Below are positions 8,802 through 60,855 of a DNA stretch of 64,000 bases, one piece after another. A program made the position numbers and the translations under genes. The notes below the pieces were generated by a model. That model made no database searches. It saw only the letters and a program-made list of their open reading frames with translations, and was not told the DNA's origin. Numbering within the stretch: position 1 is the stretch's first letter; each line of letters starts with the position of its first letter. Source of the DNA: Xanthomarina spongicola (GTDB lineage Bacteria > Bacteroidota > Bacteroidia > Flavobacteriales > Flavobacteriaceae); assembly GCF_003148645.1 (NCBI RefSeq), contig NZ_QGGP01000002.1, positions 231,525-295,524 of the forward strand. The letters are read 5' to 3'.

Positions 8802-11800
8802 ATGAATTACTTAAAGTTCCTTTTTGTTTGTTTACTTTCTAATATTGCTTTTTCTCAAAGCAATAAACAAGTTGCATTTAGAGAACTAACGGTAGAGCAT
8901 GGGCTTTCACAAAATAGCGTGGTAAGTATTGCTCAAGATAGTATTGGGTTTATGTGGTTTGCCACACAAGATGGACTCAATAAATATGATGGACGAGAAT
9001 TTATACATTATAATGTTCAATTTGAAGATGTTACCCGATCTACTTATAGCAAGCTCGGAAAAATTTATGTAGATAATTCAGAAGGGTTGTGGATTGTGTC
9101 TAATTCCGGGAAATTAGAGTACTATCAGAAAGATACAGATAGTTTTCAGAAAGTTTCAAATATCGCAAATGTAAGCACACTCATTCAAGACGCTGCTCAA
9201 AACTACTACATTGGCACCTATGAAGAAGGTATTTACAAAATTCATCATCAAACAAAAGATACTATACAATTTTTAAAACCACCAAACGCACACTTAACCA
9301 TTTATGATTTTCTAGAAACAAATAACAAGACCATATTAGCAGCAACTAATAATGGTATTATTGAAATTAAAGATAACACCTATGAATTAATAGAAATTGC
9401 TGCAGAAACTAATTTTAGCTCACTTACAAAGTCTAGAGAAAACACCTTGTTTTTAGGGAGTTATGGTAAGGGGTTATTTGTGAAACATAAAAATGACATT
9501 GATTTTAAATCGTTTCAAGGCTTTTCTAATTATTTATTACCCGAAAACTTAATCATTCAAGATTTGTTGTTTGATAAGCGAAATCGATTATGGATTGCAA
9601 CTTATGGCCAAGGGGCTTTTTTAGTTGATTTTGAAGAAAAAACCATTCAAAATTTTACCGAAAATAAAAATGACCCTTATGCCATGCATTATAATGATGT
9701 TTTGTCATTGTATGAAGACTACACTGGTACTATCTGGTTAGGAACAGATGGTGCAGGATTAAGTTATTATGATGAATACTTGGTTAAATTTAATGTTTTG
9801 ACCAATGACCAAGTACCACAAAATATTAATTTAGATGTAATTAGAGCCATAACCATAGATGATAATCATTCTATCTGGGTTGGTACATCTGGAAAAGGGC
9901 TCACTAAAATAAATACTAACAATCAAGAATTCTTTACGTATACCACCATCAATTCCAATCTTTTGGGAGATAGAATTATGAGTTTGTTGTATGATGATGG
10001 CAATCTTTGGATAGGTCATCAAACCCATGGACTTCAATTGCTGAATGATGCAGGAAGAATGGTATCTTTTAAAGAAACAGAACCGTTTACCATCTGGAAG
10101 ATTTTTAAAGACACATTTGGTAATCTGTGGCTTTGTACTAGAGATCATGGTCTCATACAATTTGATAAAAATCAAGGTATTATTAAACAGTTAACTTCAG
10201 AAAATTCAAATTTTAGTACTAACAATATACGAACCATTGAGCAGGGCAATGCAAGCACACTTTGGGTAGGAACAGAATCTGATGGGTTATACAAGTTGGA
10301 TATTAAAGAAAATCAATTAGTTAAAATCTATAATGTAACTGATAAAATAAAGTCGCTCTATTACGATGACCCAATACTTTGGGTGGGTACCAATGGTTAC
10401 GGGTTAATGGCTTTTAATACTAATAATAATACTATAACAATCTATTCTAAAACCGAAGGCTTGCCAAATAATGTTATTTATAGCATTCTGCCAGATTCTG
10501 AAGATAATTTATGGTTGAGCTCCAACAAAGGAATAACCAAGATAAAAATTGAGAACGATACCATTTCGGATATTGAAAATTATACGAATTACGATGGTTT
10601 ACAAGCATTTGAATTTAATACAGGAGCTTATTATAAAGACAAAAATGGAATTTTATATTTTGGTGGTTTAGAAGGTTTAAATTGGTTTGATCCAAGCCAG
10701 TTAGAATTTAATCCTATAAAACCAAAGACTATTATTACTGGGTTTGAAGTATTTAATGATCCAAGGGATTTGATTGAAAATATAACCCTTAATTCAAATG
10801 AAAATACAGTAACCTTTACGTTTTCTTCTTTACATTTTTCACAACCTGAACGTAACCTATATAAGTATAGATTAATTAATAACGATGCCGATTGGATTAT
10901 GTCTGGAAATACTAATCTAGCACATTACACCAATTTGTCTCCTGATGATTATGAATTTCAGGTTATTTCATGTAATTATGATGGGGTTTGGAACACAACT
11001 CCAGCAACGTATTCATTTACTATTTTAAAACCGTGGTACGCTACCAATTTTTCAAAAGCAGTTTATATTTTATTTGGTATTTTATTAGTCTTTTTAATGT
11101 ATCGCTATTTAAAATGGCGTTGGTATGTAAAAAACCAATTGCGATTAGAACACGATGAAACGGAAAGGTTAAAAAAGTTGGATGAATTCAAGACCAAACT
11201 TTACACCAATATTTCTCACGAATTTAGGACACCATTAACACTCATTTCTGGACCAATTGATAACCAACTAGCAAAACAAGAGCTTTCTAAAAACGATAAG
11301 AAAGAACTCACATTGGTTAAACAAAATGCTGATAGGTTACTCAAGTTGGTAGACCAAATGCTTAACCTTTCTATGATAGATTCTGGACAAATCAAACTCA
11401 AGGTTTCTGAAGGTAATTTATCTGTTTTATTAAAGCAAATAATAAGTGCGTTTCAATATAAAGCGAATCAGAAAAATAGTTATATAAAAAGTACTATTCA
11501 AGATTTAAACCATGTATGGTTTGATAAGGATATTATAGAGAAAGTAACATCCAACTTACTATCAAACGCTGTAAAATATGCGCCAAAACAAAGCGATATT
11601 ATTTTTGAAGCTAATAAGCAAGACCACATGTTGGTTCTATCGGTTATAAATACGAGTAGTCATGTGGGCAAAAAAGACTTAAGTAGTTTGTTTCAAAGGT
11701 TCTATCAAGATAACGAGCTGTCTGAAGGTGTTGGTGTAGGTTTGGCGTTGGTGAGAGATTTAGTAACACTATCCAAAGGAACTATTATTGCCAACAATAT

Positions 11801-12689
11801 AGATGATGATAAAATTCAGTTTTCCTTATCAATTCCTATTCATAAAGATGCTTTTAGTGATGAAGAGATTGTTAATAATACTATTGAAAATCAAAATAAA
11901 GTACTATCGCAAGCAAATGTAGGTGTTAATAAAAGTAAACCTACTGTATTGATTGTTGAAGACGACTCTGAAATTCGTGCATTTATTGTGTCAACTTTCA
12001 AAAGGAGTTATAATATTATTGAGGCAACCAACGGTAAAATAGGTATTGAAAAAGCCCAGAAAAAACTCCCTGATTTAATTATTAGTGATATTATGATGCC
12101 TATACAAGATGGTATAGAACTGTGTCATAACATTAAAACCAATGAGCTTACCAGTCACATACCTATTATTTTGTTAACCGCAAAAGTAGGCGAAGAGAAT
12201 GAAATTCAAGGGATTAAAACAGGAGCAGATGCTTATGTTACCAAACCGTTTAATAGTGAGAAACTCAAAATTAGAGTCGAAAAGCTTATTGAAAGTAGGT
12301 TGAAACTGCAAAAGCATTTCAGTAAAACATTAAGCCTCAATCCAGAATTGGCAATCACTTCAACCGAAACAGAATTTTTAAAACGTCTTCAAACGGTTTT
12401 AGATACACATATAACCAATCCGGAATTTACTAGTGAACGTTTTGCCAAACTCATGCAAATAAGTCGAACACAGCTTCATAGAAAATTAAAAGCCATTACA
12501 AACATGACAACCAGTGAGTTTATACGTTCACAACGTTTAAAACTTGCTGAAGATTTACTGAAGAAATCTGATGCGACTATTTCTGAAATAGCCTATCAAG
12601 TAGGCTTCAATACACCTTCCTATTTTATCAAATGTTTTAAAGAAATTTACCACTGCACACCTAATGAGTTCCAATCAAGAACCTTCTAA
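8802..12689 (+). CDS. Hybrid two-component system regulator (sensor kinase-receiver-AraC)
   Basis: This 1295-residue single-chain regulator has a signal peptide (1-19), periplasmic Reg_prop beta-propeller blades (about 25-680, first blade HGLSQNSVVSIAQDSIGFMW), and a Y_Y_Y domain (about 690-745). One membrane span (about 751-770) and a HisKA domain follow, with phospho-accepting H806 in NISHEFRTPLTL. The HATPase has N-box LLSNAVKYAP and G-box GVGVGLAL. The receiver carries D1096 in LIISDIMMP, and the C-terminus is an AraC HTH. All catalytic residues are intact. Such HTCS proteins usually sense glycans for SusC/D loci, but none is present. The adhesin/lipoprotein operon downstream is the obvious target, with paired direct repeats in between. 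Confidence 0.93.
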   Translation: MNYLKFLFVCLLSNIAFSQSNKQVAFRELTVEHGLSQNSVVSIAQDSIGFMWFATQDGLNKYDGREFIHYNVQFEDVTRSTYSKLGKIYVDNSEGLWIVSNSGKLEYYQKDTDSFQKVSNIANVSTLIQDAAQNYYIGTYEEGIYKIHHQTKDTIQFLKPPNAHLTIYDFLETNNKTILAATNNGIIEIKDNTYELIEIAAETNFSSLTKSRENTLFLGSYGKGLFVKHKNDIDFKSFQGFSNYLLPENLIIQDLLFDKRNRLWIATYGQGAFLVDFEEKTIQNFTENKNDPYAMHYNDVLSLYEDYTGTIWLGTDGAGLSYYDEYLVKFNVLTNDQVPQNINLDVIRAITIDDNHSIWVGTSGKGLTKINTNNQEFFTYTTINSNLLGDRIMSLLYDDGNLWIGHQTHGLQLLNDAGRMVSFKETEPFTIWKIFKDTFGNLWLCTRDHGLIQFDKNQGIIKQLTSENSNFSTNNIRTIEQGNASTLWVGTESDGLYKLDIKENQLVKIYNVTDKIKSLYYDDPILWVGTNGYGLMAFNTNNNTITIYSKTEGLPNNVIYSILPDSEDNLWLSSNKGITKIKIENDTISDIENYTNYDGLQAFEFNTGAYYKDKNGILYFGGLEGLNWFDPSQLEFNPIKPKTIITGFEVFNDPRDLIENITLNSNENTVTFTFSSLHFSQPERNLYKYRLINNDADWIMSGNTNLAHYTNLSPDDYEFQVISCNYDGVWNTTPATYSFTILKPWYATNFSKAVYILFGILLVFLMYRYLKWRWYVKNQLRLEHDETERLKKLDEFKTKLYTNISHEFRTPLTLISGPIDNQLAKQELSKNDKKELTLVKQNADRLLKLVDQMLNLSMIDSGQIKLKVSEGNLSVLLKQIISAFQYKANQKNSYIKSTIQDLNHVWFDKDIIEKVTSNLLSNAVKYAPKQSDIIFEANKQDHMLVLSVINTSSHVGKKDLSSLFQRFYQDNELSEGVGVGLALVRDLVTLSKGTIIANNIDDDKIQFSLSIPIHKDAFSDEEIVNNTIENQNKVLSQANVGVNKSKPTVLIVEDDSEIRAFIVSTFKRSYNIIEATNGKIGIEKAQKKLPDLIISDIMMPIQDGIELCHNIKTNELTSHIPIILLTAKVGEENEIQGIKTGADAYVTKPFNSEKLKIRVEKLIESRLKLQKHFSKTLSLNPELAITSTETEFLKRLQTVLDTHITNPEFTSERFAKLMQISRTQLHRKLKAITNMTTSEFIRSQRLKLAEDLLKKSDATISEIAYQVGFNTPSYFIKCFKEIYHCTPNEFQSRTF

Positions 12690-57180: not shown

Positions 57181-57684
57181 ATGAAAAAATTTAGTTTACT
57201 TATTTTAGGAATTCTTGTAGGTGCTTTTGCAACCTATTATTTTTGTCCAAGTTGCAGTGTTGAAGAAACTGAAGTTGCCATTGTTGCACCCAAAGGACTT
57301 ATTACACCAGAAGAAGCTAAAACTTTAGACCAAGCGTTTAACAGCAGGCATGCTTTAATTAGCGATTCTATAGTAAAACGTCCAGACAACCGGTCTTCTT
57401 GGTGGTCATTAAAAGACATGCGCGATTATTTAAATTATGCTGAAAATGAATCTAAAGATTTAGGTTACACTATGGATGGTGTTCGTGTGTATCTAGGTGC
57501 ACATGCAACAACTAATGAAGTTGGTTATACCACCATGTTTTTAATACCAACTGGCGTTGAAAACATTTCTCAAGGAAACAGCACCTTATTTAATATGTTG
57601 CCACCAGATAGTGGAGATATTCCTGGAGGAGGTCTAAATGCAGGAAATCCAGGAAACCCTCCACCAGCTAATTATCCTCAATAG
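57181..57684 (+). CDS. Membrane-anchored exported protein of unknown function
   Basis: The 167-residue protein has one N-terminal membrane anchor (about 4-20) followed by CPSC (C22, C25) with no lipobox. The soluble domain centres on SSWWSLKDMRDYLNYAENES and GYTMDGVRVYLGAHATT. The tail is Gly/Pro-rich (GGGLNAGNPGNPPPANYPQ). I recall homologues of this pattern as uncharacterised exported proteins in Flavobacteria. It begins 8 bp before a multi-span membrane protein and opens the 57-61 kb module. A relic of another copy lies between the first two membrane proteins. Confidence 0.7.
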   Translation: MKKFSLLILGILVGAFATYYFCPSCSVEETEVAIVAPKGLITPEEAKTLDQAFNSRHALISDSIVKRPDNRSSWWSLKDMRDYLNYAENESKDLGYTMDGVRVYLGAHATTNEVGYTTMFLIPTGVENISQGNSTLFNMLPPDSGDIPGGGLNAGNPGNPPPANYPQ

Positions 57685-57691
57685 TTAATTC

Positions 57692-58411
57692 ATGTTTGAT
57701 TTATTATATAGGTATAGTGAACAATTAAATGACCTAATTTTAATTGTATGTGCTGTTATTGGGATTGTATATTATAAAAAATATAAAAATTATAATAGCA
57801 AAATATTTATATACTATTTAATTTATGTGGTATTCGTTGATTTTATTGGAAGTTATCCATATTATGTTATTGAATACGAACAACTTCATGGTCTGCGAGA
57901 TTATTTAAAAGAAACTTATTTTAGCAGAAATTTTTGGTGGTTTACTACTTTTTGGAATATAGGAAGTGTCTTATTTATGTCTTACTATTATTATGTAATT
58001 TTAAAAACTAGAAGTTTTAAAAAAATTGTAAAGTATGTCTGTTTCATATTTTTGTTTAGTTCTGTTATTTATATTAGTCAAAATTTAAACTCATTCTTTA
58101 ATTCACAATTAAAATTTGTCAATATTTTTGGTGCATTAGTCATTTTGAATTGTATTTGCTTATACTTTATTGAAATTCTCAATAGTGACAAAATATTAGT
58201 CTTTTATAAATCGTTAAATTCTATAATAAGTATTACTTTGTTTTTATGGTGGTTAATTATAACCTCTCTTTTATTTTATGAAGTATATTTTTCTGCATTA
58301 GATATAGGCTATTTAAATTTAAGAAGTAATGTGTATTTATTTTCAAACTTATTTATGTACTTAACATTTTCATTTGCTTTAATTTGGTGTGATCCAAAAC
58401 AAGAAATCTAA
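57692..58411 (+). CDS. Multi-span membrane protein, paralog 1 of 3
   Basis: The 239-residue protein has about seven predicted membrane spans. Motifs shared with the next two proteins are IFIYYLIYVVFVDFIGSY, FSRNFWW, FIEILNSDKIL, FLWWLIITSLLFY and LFSNLFMY. The outward loops are short. The family is not one I can name; the architecture resembles 7-TM sensor or receptor domains. It follows the exported protein by 8 bp and probably interacts with it. Confidence 0.7.
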   Translation: MFDLLYRYSEQLNDLILIVCAVIGIVYYKKYKNYNSKIFIYYLIYVVFVDFIGSYPYYVIEYEQLHGLRDYLKETYFSRNFWWFTTFWNIGSVLFMSYYYYVILKTRSFKKIVKYVCFIFLFSSVIYISQNLNSFFNSQLKFVNIFGALVILNCICLYFIEILNSDKILVFYKSLNSIISITLFLWWLIITSLLFYEVYFSALDIGYLNLRSNVYLFSNLFMYLTFSFALIWCDPKQEI

Positions 58412-58418
58412 ATTTTAA

Positions 58419-58467
58419 CTTAAAAGAGGTCTATGAGAATTTTTAATTATGCTGAAAACGAATCTTA
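58419..58467 (+). pseudogene. Relic of a second exported-protein gene
   Basis: The 21 bases at 58445-58465 match 57433-57453 at 20 positions. They encode the same NYAENES motif of the exported protein and are followed directly by a TAA; the flanks match only weakly (TTAAAAGA at 58419). No longer open frame remains. It lies between the first and second membrane paralogs. Confidence 0.6.
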
Positions 58468-58567
58468 AAAAAATATAACTCATAGACTTTTAGAGTATTA
58501 ACATGATAGTATTTTAAATAATTATTATTACATTGAATATAAATTTATTACGTAAGCAATTTTAAGG

Positions 58568-59272
58568 ATGAAAGATTTCCTTCTTAATAATTACATGTTT
58601 GTTAATTTAGCAGTTGTTTTTATAGCAGCTATTACTGGCTTGTTATTATTTAAAAAATTCAATAATACACCTGTAAAGTATTTTATATACTTTCTAGTAT
58701 ATGTATTTATTGCAGATTTACTTGGTTCTTATACAAGAATTTTAAACCAATTAGATCTTTCTTATTTAATTGAGGATACTGTATTTAAAAGAAATTTTTG
58801 GTGGCATACACTTACTTGGTATATTGGAAGTGCCATTTTTTTTAATTGGTACTTTAGAAAAGTAATAAAAAATAATTTCTTACGGAACGTTCTTCGTTAT
58901 GCATTACTTTTATTTTTAATTATTTCTGTAGTTAGTATAGCAATTAACTTCAGACAATTTTTTGAAGGCACTTTTAATATAATCAGAATAGGGAATATGT
59001 CTATCATTATGTTGTGTGTGGCTTTTTATATGTTTGAAATTCTAAGCAATGAAAAAGTATTGGAATTTAATAAAGACATCAATCTATATATAAGCGTCAT
59101 TATTTTTATTTGGTTGCTAATTACTATACCATTGGTGCATTTTGTTTGCGATAATGCGAACAAAGACCCAAATCAAGCTGAATTAAAATGGATGATTATG
59201 CTGTATGCTAATATCTTTATGTATTTATCTTTTGCCATTACTCTAATAATTTCAAAGTCTAAAAAGGACTAA
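58568..59272 (+). CDS. Multi-span membrane protein, paralog 2 of 3
   Basis: The 234-residue protein has about seven membrane spans and the shared motifs YFIYFLVYVFIADLLGSY, FKRNFWW, MFEILSNEKVLEF, FIWLLITIPLVHF and YANIFMYLSF. Conservation with the first paralog is clear by eye across the whole length. It is separated from the first by 156 bp that contains the gene relic, and from the third by about 46 bp. No function is known. Confidence 0.7.
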   Translation: MKDFLLNNYMFVNLAVVFIAAITGLLLFKKFNNTPVKYFIYFLVYVFIADLLGSYTRILNQLDLSYLIEDTVFKRNFWWHTLTWYIGSAIFFNWYFRKVIKNNFLRNVLRYALLLFLIISVVSIAINFRQFFEGTFNIIRIGNMSIIMLCVAFYMFEILSNEKVLEFNKDINLYISVIIFIWLLITIPLVHFVCDNANKDPNQAELKWMIMLYANIFMYLSFAITLIISKSKKD

Positions 59273-59318
59273 TAAACATGATGTTTTTTAATATAAACTA
59301 AAATAACACTCAAATTCT

Positions 59319-60032
59319 GTGCTCGATTTTTTAACTAGTTATTTTAATTTTATAGTTTATGGTTTTGAGATTCTTGCGGCAATAGCGGGTTTGTATTTTT
59401 TAAATAAAACTAAAAACAAAAGCACAAGAATTTTTGTTTTTTATTTGTTATATGTTGTTTTTGTTGAGTTTGTTGCTGTTTGTTTAATATTTTTTAAGTC
59501 AACATTACTAGTTTCATATTTAATAAGTCTAGGAATTAAGAGCACAAGCTGGTTTAATTTGTTTTGGTTATATGGTAGTATTTTGTTTGTATTGTTTTAT
59601 TACCACTCATTATTAACTAACACTAAATTTAAGTTGGTTTTAAAAATTATGGCAATCTTATTTTCAGTAGTCATGTTAAGTCATTTTATAGTATTTCCAA
59701 ACGTATTTTTAACAGAACATCCTCCTCTTTATCAAATTTCAGGATTGATTATTACTTTAATCTGTGTTGCCTTATATTTTATTGAATTCTTAAATGATGA
59801 AAAAGTATTAATGATTTTTCAAACGTTTAGTTTTTATGCCACTTTAGGACTGTTTGTTTGGTGGTTAATTATAACACCAGTTATTTTTTATGATAATTAC
59901 AATACCATAGCAGATTGGGATTTTGCTAACTTAAAGAGAAGAATTTTTTTATTCGCTAATATATTTATGTATACTTGTTTTACCGTTGGATTTATTATTA
60001 CTAAACCTAAATCTAATAATGAGATTATTTAA
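59319..60032 (+). CDS. Multi-span membrane protein, paralog 3 of 3
   Basis: The 237-residue protein shares IFVFYLLYVVFVEFV, YFIEFLNDEKVLMIF, LFVWWLIITPVIFY and FANIFMY with the other two, but the NFWW motif is replaced by TSWFNLFW. The start is GTG (59319). Its 3' end overlaps the start of the histidine kinase gene by 14 bp, so it is likely coupled to the kinase and may act as its sensor. The spans are predicted by eye. Confidence 0.68.
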   Translation: MLDFLTSYFNFIVYGFEILAAIAGLYFLNKTKNKSTRIFVFYLLYVVFVEFVAVCLIFFKSTLLVSYLISLGIKSTSWFNLFWLYGSILFVLFYYHSLLTNTKFKLVLKIMAILFSVVMLSHFIVFPNVFLTEHPPLYQISGLIITLICVALYFIEFLNDEKVLMIFQTFSFYATLGLFVWWLIITPVIFYDNYNTIADWDFANLKRRIFLFANIFMYTCFTVGFIITKPKSNNEII

Positions 60033-60855
60033 TTTCTTTTTCTTATTTCAACAGCCTTCTATATCTACCTCTGCAGAGCGCTACTTACTAATCTACATGA
60101 TTGGTGTTTTACTAATAGTAACCACCTTGGTTGTTGTTTTTTTTATTGTTTTTCAAAAACGAAAAAATAAATTGTTGTTAGATAAAATAAAACAACAACA
60201 AGCTTTCGATGAAGAAATTGCACAAACTCAAACAGAAATACAAGAGGAAACCTTAAAACATATAGGTAGAGAATTGCATGATAATGTAGGACAATTACTT
60301 GCATTTGCAAGCATGCAACTAAACATGCTTAAAGCGCAAGTAAATGAAGATATAAAAGATAAAGTAGCTGATGCATCTAGCGTTATAAAAGAAAGCTTGC
60401 AGGAAGTTAGAGAGCTTTCAAAGTCTCTAAATTCTGATGTTATATTGAATGCTGGTTTTGAAGATTCTATTATAAATGAATTAAAGCGTATTAAACGAAT
60501 GAAATTAATGGAAGTTGATTTTGAAAGTTATGGAGGAAAAATTGTGTTTCATAACGAAAAAGATGCCATTATTTTATTTAGAATTTTACAAGAATTTATG
60601 TCAAATTCAGTTAAGTATTCTAAAGCCAAACAAATAAAGATTGTGTTAGATTATACAGAAGAAATGCTTATTATTCAAGCTTCAGACGATGGTGTAGGAT
60701 TTGACATGAAAGCTGTTAAAAAAGGTTCCGGATTAATTAATATGACAAATCGAGCTAATCTAATAGAGTCTACTTTTAGCCTTACATCTCAACCAAACCA
60801 AGGAGTTGCTATAAAAATAGAATATCCTATTTCAAAAAGAACGATAACAGGTTAA
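60019..60855 (+). CDS. NarL-class sensor histidine kinase
   Basis: The 278-residue protein has one N-terminal span (about 22-43), a coiled linker (LLLDKIKQQQAFDEEIAQTQ) and the HisKA_3 H-box LKHIGRELHDNVGQLLA. A HATPase follows (EFMSNSVKYSKAKQI, DDGVGFDMKAV, GSGLINMTNR). It has no periplasmic sensor. I start it at the ATG at 60019; an earlier in-frame start lies deep in the preceding gene. No LuxR/NarL response regulator is adjacent. The overlap with the third membrane paralog suggests that the paralogs supply the input. Confidence 0.87.
   Translation: MRLFNFFFLFQQPSISTSAERYLLIYMIGVLLIVTTLVVVFFIVFQKRKNKLLLDKIKQQQAFDEEIAQTQTEIQEETLKHIGRELHDNVGQLLAFASMQLNMLKAQVNEDIKDKVADASSVIKESLQEVRELSKSLNSDVILNAGFEDSIINELKRIKRMKLMEVDFESYGGKIVFHNEKDAIILFRILQEFMSNSVKYSKAKQIKIVLDYTEEMLIIQASDDGVGFDMKAVKKGSGLINMTNRANLIESTFSLTSQPNQGVAIKIEYPISKRTITG

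Follow-up and report, generated by a model that had tools for sequence, protein, structure and literature searches.

A membrane-protein and kinase locus of Xanthomarina spongicola as the putative receptor half of a two-component system possibly rewired to the regulator of another system

We analyzed a 64,000-nucleotide stretch of the Xanthomarina spongicola genome (assembly GCF_003148645.1, contig NZ_QGGP01000002.1, positions 231,525 to 295,524; here called the window), which carries a locus of five genes encoding an anchored protein (c1), three paralogs with predicted seven-transmembrane (7TM) architecture and a histidine kinase (HK) (Table 1). We consider it fairly probable that this locus is the receptor half of a two-component system, its kinase having been rewired to an orphan regulator (ORR) encoded elsewhere in the genome. 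The open reading frames (ORFs) were all co-directional (+ strand), as a first-pass annotation of the same DNA had stated, and the kinase gene overlapped the last paralog by exactly the proposed 14 bp (60019-60032), its ATG lying inside 7TM paralog 3. The annotation had also called the genes closely spaced, which was true of the intervals between c1 and 7TM paralog 1 (7 bp), between paralogs 2 and 3 (46 bp) and between paralog 3 and the kinase (-14 bp) but not of the 156-bp gap between paralogs 1 and 2, which holds a decayed copy of c1. No response regulator (RR) adjoined the kinase, again as annotated; the gene beyond it runs in the opposite direction, with its 3' end roughly 10 bp from that of the kinase gene. 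The promoter consensus TTTG-N17-23-TANNTTTG matched twice in the window, which is below chance, and nowhere near the operon. A reading as a defense system was rejected on a PADLOC scan of the exported and 7TM proteins that gave no match.

Table 1. Features of the locus and the candidate partner regulator
Feature	Position	Strand	Basis and remarks
c1 (P0001)	57181..57684	+	ORF, 167 aa; membrane-anchored; 5' of 7TM gene in relatives
7TM paralog 1 (P0002)	57692..58411	+	ORF, 239 aa
Decayed trace of another c1 copy, N-truncated	58420..58468	+	Base matches to c1 gene; copies in congeners
7TM paralog 2 (P0003)	58568..59272	+	ORF, 234 aa; structure modeled
7TM paralog 3 (P0004)	59319..60032	+	ORF, GTG start, 237 aa; more divergent, without NFWW
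Histidine kinase (P0005), sensor-less	60019..60855	+	ORF, ATG start, 278 aa; HisKA_3 and HATPase_c
ORR, NarL-type RR	C1:599754-600377 of source genome (outside the window)		Locus TatD, retropepsin, ORR, SucB

The three tandem paralogs were confirmed as relatives of one another (33-34% identity, E values of 6e-37 and 1e-32 with P0002 as query), and they are the only members of their family in the source genome. The model of P0003 showed seven transmembrane (TM) helices at a mean pLDDT of 90.8. Comparing K+R with D+E loop by loop, we found an excess of positive residues in loop 1 (2.66/0.31), loop 3 (2.06/0.34), loop 5 (1.77/1.22) and the C-terminus (2.07/1.03) and none in loops 2, 4 and 6, a pattern which indicates that the N-terminus lies outside (N-out/C-in). 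Among the conserved positions are N76 and W78, both located where TM3 ends on the outer side, Y154, P188 and, in TM7, N215 and Y219. The motifs that the first-pass annotation took to be shared fared unevenly: NFWW occurs in paralogs 1 and 2 but is replaced by STSWF in paralog 3, whereas LNxEKVL and FANIFMY are present as variants of family-wide motifs.

The annotation could not assign the paralogs to a named family, and neither could we, since Pfam, NCBIfam and PADLOC scans of P0002 to P0004 gave nothing above cut-off. Weak scan matches of the exported and 7TM proteins to Rnf-Nqr (0.61), YbhQ (0.015) and DNA_ligase_aden (0.026) were judged to be chance, and a Pfam scan of 110 7TM members left two with one chance-level match each. 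A profile search of the PDB found no relative of the family, and Foldseek with the 7TM model gave a best E value of 0.42. The best structural neighbors were class C and B G protein-coupled receptors (Z of 13.0 over 208 residues, root mean square deviation of 4.4), a range that unrelated helical models also reach. The hallmark of microbial rhodopsins was missing, with no TM7 Lys among the 40 most conserved positions; L212, N215 and Y219 are conserved there.

The c1 protein of the window has an N-terminal TM helix (residues 2-21), two helices, a beta hairpin and a conserved Gly/Pro tail with a terminal NYPQ. Its earlier label as exported suits this member but not the c1 family as a whole, in which anchoring varies. 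Classed by simple rules, the 111 unique c1 sequences of the clade that includes the window (the window clade) comprised 88 with a TM/signal segment, 1 with a lipobox, 16 with neither and 6 short copies. Among 36 unique sequences of other loci, 14 had a lipobox, 8 had a TM/signal segment (some of these resembling lipoproteins by eye) and 14 had neither. Pfam, NCBIfam and PADLOC scans of c1 gave nothing above cut-off, and a Pfam scan of 91 c1 members returned one chance-level match. Five chains from a PDB profile search (E values of 0.12-0.63) were likewise judged to be chance, Foldseek found no match at an E value of 0.001, and the best structural Z was 3.4.

The kinase has one TM helix (by eye) and a coiled stretch, followed by HisKA_3 (49.1 bits, cut-off 24) and HATPase_c (36.9 bits, cut-off 26.4), with no other domain above cut-off. 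The annotation of P0005 as a NarL-class kinase without a sensor domain is borne out by these matches and by the presence of the phospho-His and the N and G boxes. In 93 unique kinases that have no adjacent RR, H87, D88, Q92, N196 and G225 were invariant (93/93), and G227 and G238 were kept in 92/93. By analogy with its family, we presume that the kinase autophosphorylates at H87 and that its HDxxxQ motif allows phosphatase action as well. The retention of catalysis and of this motif suggests that the kinase should still have a partner.

Next, we looked at how widely the locus is conserved. With P0003 as query, the 7TM family was found in 23 of 60 close relatives, source genome included (genus, 8/8; rest of the family, 15/29; other families, 0/23). 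Gene order was then surveyed at 103 flavobacterial loci, of which 23 were chosen by place and 80 were the best of 153 confirmed relatives, some genomes being in both sets. In 99 of these loci, the kinase followed the 7TM gene in the order c1-7TM-kinase; three of the four exceptions lie at a contig end, and the fourth (L056) is divergent. The first-pass annotation had proposed this survey and would have given up the module had the order been unconserved and the paralogs belonged to a known transporter family; the order is kept, and no transporter family scored above cut-off. Some variants of the layout were seen: L143 (Formosa algae) carries two complete c1-7TM-HK modules in tandem, L253 has a further 7TM gene 3' of the kinase, and two c1 genes precede a single 7TM gene in L250, L100, L105, L120, L132, L141 and L153; in the last four of these, a short c1 (126-129 aa) comes first and is followed by one of about 170 aa. 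In L043, L045-L047, L050, L052, L053 and L055, an Nramp-like transporter and three 5-oxoprolinase-subunit-like genes (by eye) lie 5' of the module; they are not in the window.

In a phylum sample of 395 Bacteroidota genomes, the 7TM profile matched 42 and the c1 profile 34. At 40 7TM loci from this sample, a NarL-type RR directly followed the kinase in 30; the other 10 were four loci of the window clade together with L259, L262, L264, L273, L279 (counted as RR-less although it has a second HK reading frame with an RR behind it) and L288. The frequency of the adjacent RR indicates that the orphan state is derived and that the module was ancestrally a two-component system of four genes, in which the 7TM protein is separate from the kinase and has an anchored partner. 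Our literature search turned up no description of this set. The "undescribed membrane signalling module" of the first-pass annotation therefore stands as to its conserved order and the lack of a Pfam family for 7TM and c1, but its kinase comes from an ordinary HK-RR pair.

In the window, a unit that usually occurs once has been amplified locally to give the three paralogs. Loci with two to five 7TM frames made up 31/102 in the window clade (L145 being a split frame), compared with 3/40 elsewhere, with genomes partly repeated. In congeners, N-truncated c1 genes (87-92 aa) that start near the LNYAENES segment stand before some of the extra 7TM copies, with intact copies of this length in L038, L039 and L040. 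In the window, 37 of 49 bases at 58420-58468 match positions 229-276 of the c1 gene, including a 21-base block with 20/21 matches, and the LNYAENES segment is followed by a stop. The truncated copies (L036-L041 and window 58412-58567) thus range from intact frames to a decayed remnant, and they suggest that duplication probably involved the 7TM gene together with the 3' half of c1. These observations show that c1 and 7TM duplicate together.

The conservation and duplication data bear on what the membrane proteins do. The 7TM proteins could be envelope transporters or enzymes whose activity or state the kinase monitors, and their missing family assignment and their amplification would both suit this, paralog amplification being common among transporters too. 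We regard it as distinctly unlikely, because no transporter family matched, the helices have no conserved intramembrane charges except E157 and E17-type positions near their ends, and the 7TM gene is constantly coupled to a signaling kinase, not to metabolic genes. We also considered c1 as a secreted or cytoplasmic ligand or inhibitor that sets the resting state of the 7TM protein and is no part of the sensor. The occurrence of c1 with a lipobox, a TM anchor or no signal implies that anchoring is dispensable while the domain and tail are conserved, as this role would allow; its place almost always directly 5' of 7TM and its co-duplication suggest instead a fixed complex, and we hold the ligand role to be rather unlikely. 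It departs in role only from the reading that we prefer, in which c1 and the 7TM protein quite likely form a sensory unit and the 7TM protein, with similar likelihood, acts on the kinase.

We then followed the fate of the RR. A kinase tree of 88 rows, built by a short search and without bootstrapping, put the 51 window-clade kinases, all without an adjacent RR, into one group (SH-aLRT of 99) nested among RR-bearing kinases. The tree codes L271 and L278 as RR-less because their RR/kinase overlap exceeds the limit, although both were counted as RR-bearing in the 30/40 above. On this tree, the window clade appears to have lost the module RR once. The search for a partner regulator, also proposed by the first-pass annotation, found no RR of the lost type in the source genome, where the best match (120 bits, compared with 406-419 for orthologs) sits in another pair (C8), but it did yield a candidate, the ORR, elsewhere in the genome. 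Among the relatives, G026 encodes at C6:213437 a protein related to the lost RR (281 bits), and G010, G033, G040 and G053 have lost-RR relatives of 252-305 bits, yet no 7TM match of the P0003 type.

Five LuxR-type helix-turn-helix (HTH) matches exceeded the cut-off in the source genome, and among those found, judged by neighborhood and sequence, the ORR is the sole unpaired receiver-LuxR regulator with an acceptor Asp (C2:214556, a LuxR-type HTH in an 880-aa frame, was left out). Two other candidates were rejected by eye: C1:826207 has Glu at the acceptor position, and C12:3561, of LuxR type, shows no evident receiver. An orphan LuxR-type regulator at L246:4187-4816 (source genome C1) has Glu at the expected phospho-acceptor position (by eye). 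The window itself holds a 1295-aa frame (8802-12689) with a receiver-like stretch (match at about 11943-12344), probably a large hybrid two-component protein.

An ORR homolog of at least 179 bits was present in 22 of the 23 module-bearing relatives, the exception being G018, whose module has no kinase; none of the 37 module-less relatives had a match above 150 bits (G025, 145.6; G050, 124.2). ORR-like regulators are common in general (183 of the 395 phylum genomes), so that only the high-scoring group is telling. That group comprised the six best matches (312-342 bits), from five window-clade genomes and G423, an outgroup that has the module RR; the next match scored 261 bits.

The ORR locus differed between these groups in one gene. 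In outgroups G034, G019 and G423, all of which kept the module RR, it reads TatD, retropepsin, TPR-kinase, ORR, and a kinase also precedes the ORR in G028, so that an HK stands beside the ORR in 4/4 RR-bearing outgroups, 3 of them syntenic. A kinase likewise stands beside all 13 further ORR-like genes (12 upstream, 1 downstream). In the window clade (23/23 genomes), the locus has no kinase, and the retropepsin gene adjoins the ORR; on the ORR tree, one or two changes suffice for the 23 HK-less rows. The module RR and the ORR-locus kinase were thus both missing in 23/23 clade genomes and both present in 4/4 outgroups, and none of the genomes compared was found to have undergone one loss but not the other. 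With the kinase gone from the ORR locus and the RR gone from the module, the pattern is one of complementary loss within one clade. Because the losses are complementary, both survivors have been kept and no other unpaired partner was found, the balance tips slightly toward the window kinase signaling to the ORR.

Several results weigh against the overall reading of the locus, the kinase-ORR link included. Residues of the DHp domain showed no convergence of the no-RR kinases on the ORR-locus kinases (0.290, compared with 0.300 for the nearest outgroups), and REC helix 1 of the ORR was no nearer to that of the module RR (0.169 compared with 0.178). In a mirror-tree comparison with PanB as control, the partial r for HK-ORR (0.40) was lower than those for HK-retropepsin (0.59) and HK-TatD (0.68). 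The residue-level and mirror-tree tests, which are weak ones, therefore give no specific support for the kinase-ORR link. Moreover, the two losses may have happened once each and on a single branch, which statistically makes them one coincidence, and shared ancestry confounds the joint occurrence of ORR and module. G018 (L056) retains c1-7TM-7TM without a kinase, and the c1 sequences with neither signal nor anchor (16/111 and 14/36) fit poorly with a purely external sensor.

Given the lack of specific support from these tests, the kinase may instead act on a regulator whose own pair is intact (C8, C3 or C4), with the ORR driven by another kinase and the losses coincidental. No regulator in the source genome is closer to the lost module RR than that of C8 (120 bits), and the C8 kinase is the closest paralog of the window kinase. 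However, the C8, C3 and C4 regulators each adjoin their own kinase, and the ORR would be left without an unpaired HisKA_3 kinase, as only the window, C8 and C3 kinases exceed the cut-off in the source genome. We consider this arrangement unlikely and continue with the kinase-ORR pathway.

In that pathway, c1, anchored, and the 7TM protein would form the sensory unit, and the 7TM protein would signal to the sensor-less, single-TM kinase by way of the membrane or the cytoplasmic loops. The kinase would autophosphorylate at H87, with phosphatase action possible through HDxxxQ. By gene order, the output across the Bacteroidota is the NarL-type RR encoded beside the kinase. In the clade ancestor, the module RR was lost, and the ORR locus lost its TPR-kinase and kept its NarL-type RR; the surviving kinase and the surviving RR would now make up one pathway. 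The extra 7TM copies, from tandem duplication of part of c1 and 7TM, may widen the signal range. As a tentative generalization, for which the odds seem to us not quite even, the free-standing N-out/C-in 7TM protein and its co-duplicating anchored partner, feeding a sensor-less kinase, may constitute an undescribed Bacteroidota-wide receptor class, of which one clade would have merged two systems by reciprocal loss and multiplied its receptor copies.

A close parallel in layout is VraTSR/LiaFSR of the Firmicutes, where a HisKA_3-type kinase, a NarL-type RR and a separate membrane protein are also encoded together. PMC3543457 describes LiaF as an accessory membrane protein with an inhibitory effect on LiaRS, and by analogy with LiaFSR/VraTSR (PMC3543457 and PMC9380581) our guess is that the input may be an envelope signal. 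The present module differs in its seven TM helices, the extra anchored c1, the paralog amplification and the loss of the adjacent RR in one clade. P0002 to P0004 showed no homology to LiaF/VraT above the Pfam/NCBIfam cut-off, nor did any of the 110 7TM members at an E value of 0.01, and the kinase scored 86.8 bits against the Strep_LiaS equivalog model, under its cut-off of 450. In the Rcs system, the RcsF lipoprotein acts on the membrane protein IgaA, which acts on the Rcs kinases and through them on the NarL-type RR RcsB. The likeness is one of function, with a lipoprotein, an inner-membrane protein, a kinase and a NarL-type regulator in series; Rcs has another domain set and is enterobacterial. 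In 7TMR-DISM/HisKA_7TM sensor kinases, for which Pfam models exist, a 7TM part is fused to the kinase. They share with the present module the feeding of a kinase by a 7TM module, but here the 7TM part stands alone as a protein that no Pfam model matched, and those for the fused kinases matched none of the 110 7TM members at an E value of 0.01.

A precedent for partner change in two-component evolution is the Spo0 pathway of the Firmicutes, in which, according to PMC6136694, the kinase changed its regulator, components were lost and a phosphorelay gave way to direct phosphorylation. In the present clade, by contrast, two separate kinase-regulator pairs appear to have been merged by reciprocal loss. 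For most orphan kinases, sequence by itself does not reveal the regulator, whereas here complementary loss at two loci names one partner; if true, this would be a clean natural case of merging two-component systems. The proposal also gives a working frame for two unnamed protein families, c1 and 7TM, that occur together across the Bacteroidota.

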